Shown: positions 24,782-26,207 of the stretch, in pieces | How positions within the stretch are numbered: the first letter of the stretch is position 1 | Layout of the letters: every line of letters begins with the position of its first letter | Assembly: GCA_002868945.1 (NCBI GenBank) | Contig: PKTX01000057.1 | Coordinates: 1 to 64,000 of the forward strand | Reading direction: 5' to 3' | Origin: Desulfobulbaceae bacterium | GTDB lineage: Bacteria > Desulfobacterota > Desulfobulbia > Desulfobulbales > SURF-16 | DNA length: 64,000 nucleotides | Made by a program: the position numbers and the translations under genes | The notes under the pieces: generated by a model | Database searches by the model: none | What the model saw: only the letters and a program-made list of their open reading frames with translations | What the model was told of the DNA's origin: nothing

Positions 24782-25123
24782 TCAGGAACCTGTCACTTCC
24801 TGGTAGAGTTCGTCGTTGTAACCGATGTAAAAGGTGTTGCCGCGCCGCAGGGTGGGAGCGCGCAGATTACCGGTGCGCCCCAGCATTTTTTGCATGATTT
24901 CTTCTTTATTGTCGGAGGTGGGTCTCAATATCCGGATCTTCTTGCCGTCGGCAATAAAAAGCTGATCCGCCTGCCGCACCAGCTGCCAGGCCGCTTCCCC
25001 TGCCACGCTCTCCCTGCCGGCGTTTATCTCTTCCTTGATGGTGATTCCGTTTTGTGCAAGGGCCTGCCCGGCCTTTTTGCAGGAGGTTCATGCCTTGCGC
25101 AGGTAGGCCCAGTCGATAGTCAT
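24782..25123 (-). CDS. ArsC/Spx-like thioredoxin-fold selenoprotein (in-frame TGA = Sec12)
   Basis: Read through one TGA (25088-25090), this is a 113-residue protein. The start at 25123 has AAGGAG 8 bp upstream. The TGA falls exactly at the first position of a redox motif: YLRKA-Sec-TSCKKAG (UxxC). The end, LRAPTLRRGNTFYIGYNDE, matches the ArsC/Spx fold with a cis-proline. Directly after the TGA a hairpin (25055-25081) with a GG-containing apical loop fits a bacterial SECIS. A conventional call would start at 25006 and lose the active site. It heads the yifB-amrB-amrA run. The role is probably thiol-based redox. Confidence 0.87.
25055..25081 (-). promoter_or_regulatory. SECIS-like hairpin of the ArsC-like gene
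   Basis: Starting 6 bases after the TGA, TGCAA pairs with TTGCA and an inner GGCC with GGCC, leaving an apical GGGCA loop about 19 bases from the TGA. Distance and G-rich loop agree with bacterial SECIS elements that bind SelB. Confidence 0.65.
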
Positions 25124-25420: not shown

Positions 25421-25630
25421 ATGAAGGTGCGCTGTTTTTCCCCCTGTGAATTTGATGTGGGCGAGATGATCTATATAGATGGCGGCAAAAGAAAGGGCGA
25501 CTGGCGGGTTGTGGCCCTGGACGAAAAGTCCGTCACCCTGCGTTGCCCCATGAGCGGCAAGGAGTTTACCTGGAGCCGCTTTTGCTATGAGGTGGGTGAA
25601 ATAGATCGGCCCGCCTTTATCGGCTCTTGA
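25421..25630 (+). CDS. Small conserved-looking hypothetical protein
   Basis: This 69-residue protein has an excellent ribosome-binding site (AGGAGG, 9 bp before the ATG). The sequence looks like a compact beta-rich domain: MKVRCFSPCEFDVGE, then GDWRVVALDEKSVTLRCP and a WSRFCYEVGE end. Four cysteines in CFSPC and RC/FC positions could bind metal. It lies between the two candidate selenoprotein genes and 67 bp upstream of the second. I do not recognise its family. Confidence 0.7.
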   Translation: MKVRCFSPCEFDVGEMIYIDGGKRKGDWRVVALDEKSVTLRCPMSGKEFTWSRFCYEVGEIDRPAFIGS

Positions 25631-25697
25631 CTGTCGGCCCGCCCGCTGCCGCCTGCGCTTTTCTCCTCGGTTGCCGAGTCTCTGCAAGGAGTTTTTT

Positions 25698-26207
25698 ATG
25701 AAAAATCAAAGCTGGGTCGTGTTGGCCGCCTCTTTCTTCCTGTTGGTGACCGGCGGCTGTACCGCCTTTAATGCGCCGCCTAACCGGACCAATCTGACAC
25801 CTGATTATTATCCCCTGAGCACTGATCCGCATACCACGAGCTATATGGACCCTGACAGCGGTGAGGAAAGGGTGGTCTATGACCTGAATGGCCATTGGAA
25901 GGTGTGGCTCGGCTATGCCGATGCCGTGGCTATTATCCAGGACGGCGATACCTTTGTCGGTAAAACCGTGCTGGGCGGTGGCTGCTGATCGCATGCCTAT
26001 GACCCTGGACGGGTCATTATCAAAGGTCATGTGGACGGCAATCTTATCCACTGCGAAAAGCGCACGGCCGCCAATGACTGGGAAAAGAGTGTGACGGCCA
26101 TAACCGGCCATGCCGAGGCCTTTTACTGTCTGGGCTGGCCCACCAGACTTTTTGAACGCCTGGGACCCACGGAAAAGTATTGGCCTTTGCAGGAGAGAAA
26201 GTATTAA
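25698..26207 (+). CDS. Candidate novel selenoprotein lipoprotein (in-frame TGA = Sec97)
   Basis: Read through one TGA (25986-25988), this is a 169-residue protein. The start at 25698 has AAGGAG 7 bp upstream. A lipoprotein signal ends in LVTGGC. The TGA lies in KTVLGGGC-Sec-SHAYDPG, a Cys-Sec pair. After it the frame stays open for 72 codons with codon use like the first part, Cys residues in IHCEK and FYCLGW, and a TAA end. A perfect 7-bp hairpin with a TGGAC loop at 25999-26017 fits a SECIS. The alternative is a nonsense mutation in a lipoprotein gene. I do not recognise the family. Confidence 0.72.
25999..26017 (+). promoter_or_regulatory. SECIS-like hairpin of the lipoprotein gene
   Basis: ATGACCC pairs perfectly with GGGTCAT around TGGAC. 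The loop starts 18 bases after the TGA and contains GG, both as expected for bacterial SECIS elements. Confidence 0.65.

Follow-up and report, generated by a model that had tools for sequence, protein, structure and literature searches.

A single in-frame TGA (25986-25988) divides a lipoprotein gene in the window, the 64,000-nucleotide stretch of a Desulfobulbaceae contig (PKTX01000057.1) analyzed here. Does this codon end translation, or is it decoded as selenocysteine (Sec)? The reading frame lies on the forward strand (25698-26207) and begins with an ATG 6 nt downstream of a sequence-assigned ribosome-binding site, AAGGAG (25686-25691). As an earlier note on this DNA had described, the TGA is preceded by codons for the residues GGGC and followed by 72 sense codons and the stop codon TAA (26205-26207). 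With the TGA decoded as Sec at residue 97, the product has 169 residues and carries the motif GGGC-U-SH at positions 93-99. On comparison with its homologues and with the Sec genes of its own genome, we consider it highly likely that the open reading frame encodes a selenoprotein in which the UGA specifies Sec. Automatic annotation would give two fragments or a 96-residue stub.

The N terminus has a signal peptide and a lipobox cysteine, both read from the alignment by eye, with the signal peptide and lipidated Cys-21 encoded by 25698-25760. The lipobox of the window protein, VTGGC, is imperfect at position -3; the homologues have a canonical LSGC. The residue at position +2 after Cys-21 is Thr rather than Asp. 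Lipoproteins with a +2 residue other than Asp are generally sorted to the outer membrane, and outer membrane sorting on the periplasmic side is therefore expected from the lipobox and this residue. Following export and lipidation of Cys-21, the mature protein would be held in the envelope, most likely at the outer membrane, facing the periplasm.

Homologues and the Position of the TGA

Three intact homologues were identified, two in the same genus (L005/L002, 79% identity; L006/L003, 75% identity) and one in a sister genus (L007, 64% identity). The codon at the position of the TGA is TGT, TGC, and TGT in these genes, so an invariant Cys-Cys pair reads Cys-Sec in the window. All three homologues continue past this position to the same C terminus and contain long stretches that do not vary, among them DGNLIHCEKRT and FYCLG. 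Because the family as recovered is small, with members in two genera, the Cys/Sec pairing rests on these three intact sequences. Under the standard code the TGA would be a true stop, yielding a truncated lipoprotein of 96 residues. However, none of the three homologues ends at residue 96, and the most conserved half of the protein, including the invariant residues Cys-119 (26052-26054) and Cys-144 (26127-26129), lies beyond the TGA and is still under selection. We regard termination at this codon as very improbable.

Selection on either side of the TGA was assessed by Nei-Gojobori counts, which give rough dN/dS ratios here because dS is high. After the TGA, dN/dS was 0.06 between the window and L005, 0.13 between the window and L006, and 0.09 between L005 and L006. 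Before the TGA, the corresponding values for the window were 0.14 (L005) and 0.29 (L006). Residue changes private to the window lineage number two before the TGA and two after it. Judged by these counts, the sequence following the TGA is under purifying selection with no signs of decay. The in-frame UGA is thus flanked by conserved coding sequence on both sides.

The lipoprotein gene is present as a single copy in its own genome. In all four genomes with an intact gene it is found at the same place, adjoined by comM (encoding a YifB-type ATPase) and an ArsC-like gene. It is absent from this place in G002, a fourth genome from the same genus, which has a gap of 76 nt between the gene for a 69-residue protein and that for glucokinase. 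A decayed copy from which the middle has been deleted is found elsewhere in G002, away from the usual locus (L031 6869-7067, contig 11). Profile searches covering 258 genomes from the order and class and 395 from the phylum recovered no members beyond those already known. No homologue was found in viral contigs, plasmids, or phages, nor in 13 further genomes searched near the ArsC-like gene, even with every HMMER filter disabled and with readthrough of TGA. The order and class, phylum sample, viral, phage, and plasmid sets yielded no Sec-containing homologue from a second species, leaving the window gene as the one Sec member. Across the sets searched the family looks narrow, with members in two genera.

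Selenocysteine Machinery and the Hairpin Downstream of the TGA

The same genome contains SelA (E = 2.5e-161), SelB (E = 1.8e-109), a tRNA-Sec with anticodon tca, and SelD, the gene for which has a UGA within its own frame. Further UGA-containing genes are those for a peroxiredoxin, an FlpD-type protein, and the ArsC-like protein adjoining the lipoprotein. This complement of genes indicates that the genome very probably decodes Sec.

The earlier note had also pointed out a perfect hairpin, ATGACCC/GGGTCAT, and its coordinates proved exact. The element (25999-26017, forward strand) starts 10 nt after the TGA and has a 7-bp stem, the loop UGGAC, and a minimum free energy (MFE) of -10.4 kcal/mol (z = -1.9). 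Published limits for a bacterial SECIS (bSECIS) element are a stem of 4-16 bp, a loop of 3-9 nt with G at loop position 1 or 2, a UGA-loop distance of 16-37 nt, and an MFE of -7.5 or below (PMC13188914). With a stem of 7 bp, a 5-nt loop starting UG, and a UGA-loop distance of 17 nt, the lipoprotein hairpin is inside all four. The SECIS element of the peroxiredoxin gene in the same genome (10-nt spacer, 7 bp, loop GGTC, UGA-loop distance 17 nt) is identical to it in spacer, stem length, and UGA-loop distance. Those of the SelD gene (7 bp, loop GGA, 20 nt) and the FlpD gene (7 bp, loop GTT, 23 nt) have the same stem length; the hairpin of the ArsC-like gene has a shorter stem of 4 bp with a bulged extension. 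An Rfam search of the window gave no match.

In a scan of all TGAs in the window with an open frame on both sides, the lipoprotein TGA ranked joint first by hairpin stem. Comparable hairpins (perfect stem of at least 7 bp, loop of at most 6 nt with a G among its first two nucleotides, spacing of 16-25 nt) follow 39 of the 11,946 codons of the window genes (0.33%). When the synonymous codons of the lipoprotein gene were reshuffled, a comparably good hairpin arose in 4.3% of cases (p about 0.04 given the protein sequence). Taken alone, the hairpin is only moderately significant, and so it is the homologues that settle the case: hairpin and Cys/Sec pair together are convincing.

The main competing explanation is a recent nonsense mutation, or a sequencing or assembly error, that turned TGC into TGA at the second Cys of an ordinary Cys-Cys lipoprotein, with the hairpin present by chance. 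A single base change would be enough, the TGA occurs in this one genome only, the decayed copy in G002 implies that the gene is dispensable, and the 4.3% rate in the synonymous reshuffling shows that chance can supply such a hairpin. Against this, 62 single substitutions could create a stop in the lipoprotein gene, and the change of codon 97 from TGC to TGA is just one of them. It would have had to fall on an invariant Cys directly before an element found after 0.33% of codons; the multiplied odds, reckoned post hoc, are roughly 5e-5 to 7e-4. Selection downstream of the TGA is not relaxed. Furthermore, where we examined matches to other families in the same genome, the only inner stops were TGA, and these occurred only in known Sec families. 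We therefore judge mutation or error to be improbable. UGA can in general be read through, and near-cognate suppression would insert an amino acid other than Sec. The Sec machinery, the SECIS element, and the Cys at the homologous position all favor Sec instead, and suppression is the least credible of the alternatives.

Decoding as Sec would proceed through SelB and Sec-tRNA-Sec acting at the UGA under the guidance of the bSECIS element, giving a 169-residue lipoprotein with a vicinal Cys-96-Sec-97 pair (codons 25983-25985 and 25986-25988) in a GGGCUSH loop. The pair most likely originated when the second residue of the invariant Cys-Cys pair was converted from Cys to Sec. No equivalent SECIS element was found in the Cys homologues. 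One of them, L006, could fold into a comparable hairpin if G-U pairs are allowed, but the loop of that hairpin does not begin with G. The GG of the window loop belongs to the GGA codon of Gly-104, where the Cys homologues have Lys or Asp. Comparison with these relatives would thus make the making of a SECIS element visible, as a Lys/Asp-to-Gly replacement in the loop and base changes that perfect the stem. With Cys relatives at the same locus, the Cys-to-Sec change appears to have been caught at a stage open to base-by-base dissection.

Known Relatives and Candidate Function

Sequence searches of Pfam, NCBIfam 20.0, and the PDB returned no significant match for the lipoprotein. No NCBIfam model matched any of the four family members at E values up to 10; in that library the neighboring ArsC-like protein does match a model, NF041106. 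A catalogue from 2026, with 119 families and subfamilies of prokaryotic selenoproteins, contains no similar lipoprotein. By the computational criteria now applied the protein counts as a selenoprotein; by these searches it is outside every Pfam and NCBIfam family and represents a family undescribed in the catalogue, in agreement with the apparent novelty to which the earlier note had pointed. It would add to the bacterial selenoproteome a lipid-anchored envelope protein outside the searched profile libraries.

The earlier note had found the adjacent Cys-Sec unfamiliar. This holds for the carrier family, which is new, but not for the motif, which is already known: adjacent Cys-Sec is listed for SaoL, SaoC, SaoB, HgcA, MbdU, KCU-star, and the Csac_0668 family, and Sec has been suggested as a metal ligand in SaoB and SaoC (PMC13188914). 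These proteins, several of which are tied to metals, share the pair with the lipoprotein but belong to other protein families. The hypothetical deep-Sep selenoproteins DG, DW, and DF come from sulfate reducers, DG and DF from the class Desulfobulbia (PMC12013277). Like the lipoprotein, they are selenoproteins of little-known function that were recognized by the same Cys/Sec logic (PMC12013277). Their motifs (GUxG in DG, GxU in DW, none in DF) differ from Cys-Sec, and their models (NF049953, NF041197, and NF049942) are not among the NCBIfam matches of the lipoprotein. The lipoprotein is set apart from them by the NCBIfam scan and these motif differences, since the catalogue gives motifs and not alignments.

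Two AlphaFold models of the lipoprotein had pLDDT values of 49-50 and, aside from the signal peptide, contained only β-structure, with eight strands. The mature protein is probably all-β on these models. Fold searches with the low-confidence models gave a best Foldseek E value of 0.52 and a best VIA-align Z-score of 3.4, and no fold could be named. Comparison with the thioredoxin fold found neither CxxU nor UxxC at the lipoprotein site and no Pfam match, alongside the low-confidence all-β models. As both models are poor, the fold and function of the lipoprotein are weakly founded.

The residues invariant in the family include four chalcogen positions, 96, 97 (Cys or Sec), 119, and 144, together with His-99. 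With these five residues invariant, the natural readings are a site for soft metals or one for selenenylsulfide redox chemistry, and Cys-96, Sec-97, Cys-119, and Cys-144 may together form a soft-ligand site. The glycine run preceding the Cys-Sec pair would give the pair mobility. We give soft-metal or metalloid binding a little less than an even chance. It is ranked slightly ahead of reversible selenenylsulfide/disulfide redox chemistry, a possibility that we hold somewhat less strongly, because several of the catalogued Cys-Sec families are metal-linked. More tentatively still, the protein could represent a new family of outer membrane all-β lipoproteins whose Cys-Sec pair and two further invariant Cys serve to capture or reduce soft metals or metalloids within the envelope, Sec having been acquired recently and within one genus.

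The adjoining ArsC-like gene (24782-25123, reverse strand; NF041106, E = 2.3e-34) is divergent from and independent of the lipoprotein gene and is presumably the selenoprotein that the earlier note had counted first. Its UGA (25090-25088) lies in a UxxC motif. Both proteins are selenoproteins of the same genome, but the ArsC/Spx-like neighbor has no signal peptide and no sequence relation to the lipoprotein. We found no functional link between the two, the ArsC-like gene being widespread in the family without the lipoprotein. The UGA of the ArsC-like gene is kept in 16 of the 17 genomes with a match and replaced by Cys in one (L048).

In two sister genomes a cereblon-type CULT-domain protein is encoded directly upstream of the lipoprotein gene (L033 9232-9816; L032 4209-4649, forward strand); it is absent at the corresponding place in the window. 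The L033 protein matches cereblon isoform 4 in the PDB (E = 1.3e-22), and its gene is separated from the lipoprotein gene by 13 nt. About 6.4 kb of L032 (7096-13542), between a VTT-domain gene and a gene for a 187-residue protein, is absent from the window. The 69-residue protein, which belongs to no known family, is encoded in the window at 25421-25630 (forward strand). It is 78-85% identical within the genus, and in further genera it is likewise encoded beside the ArsC-like gene.
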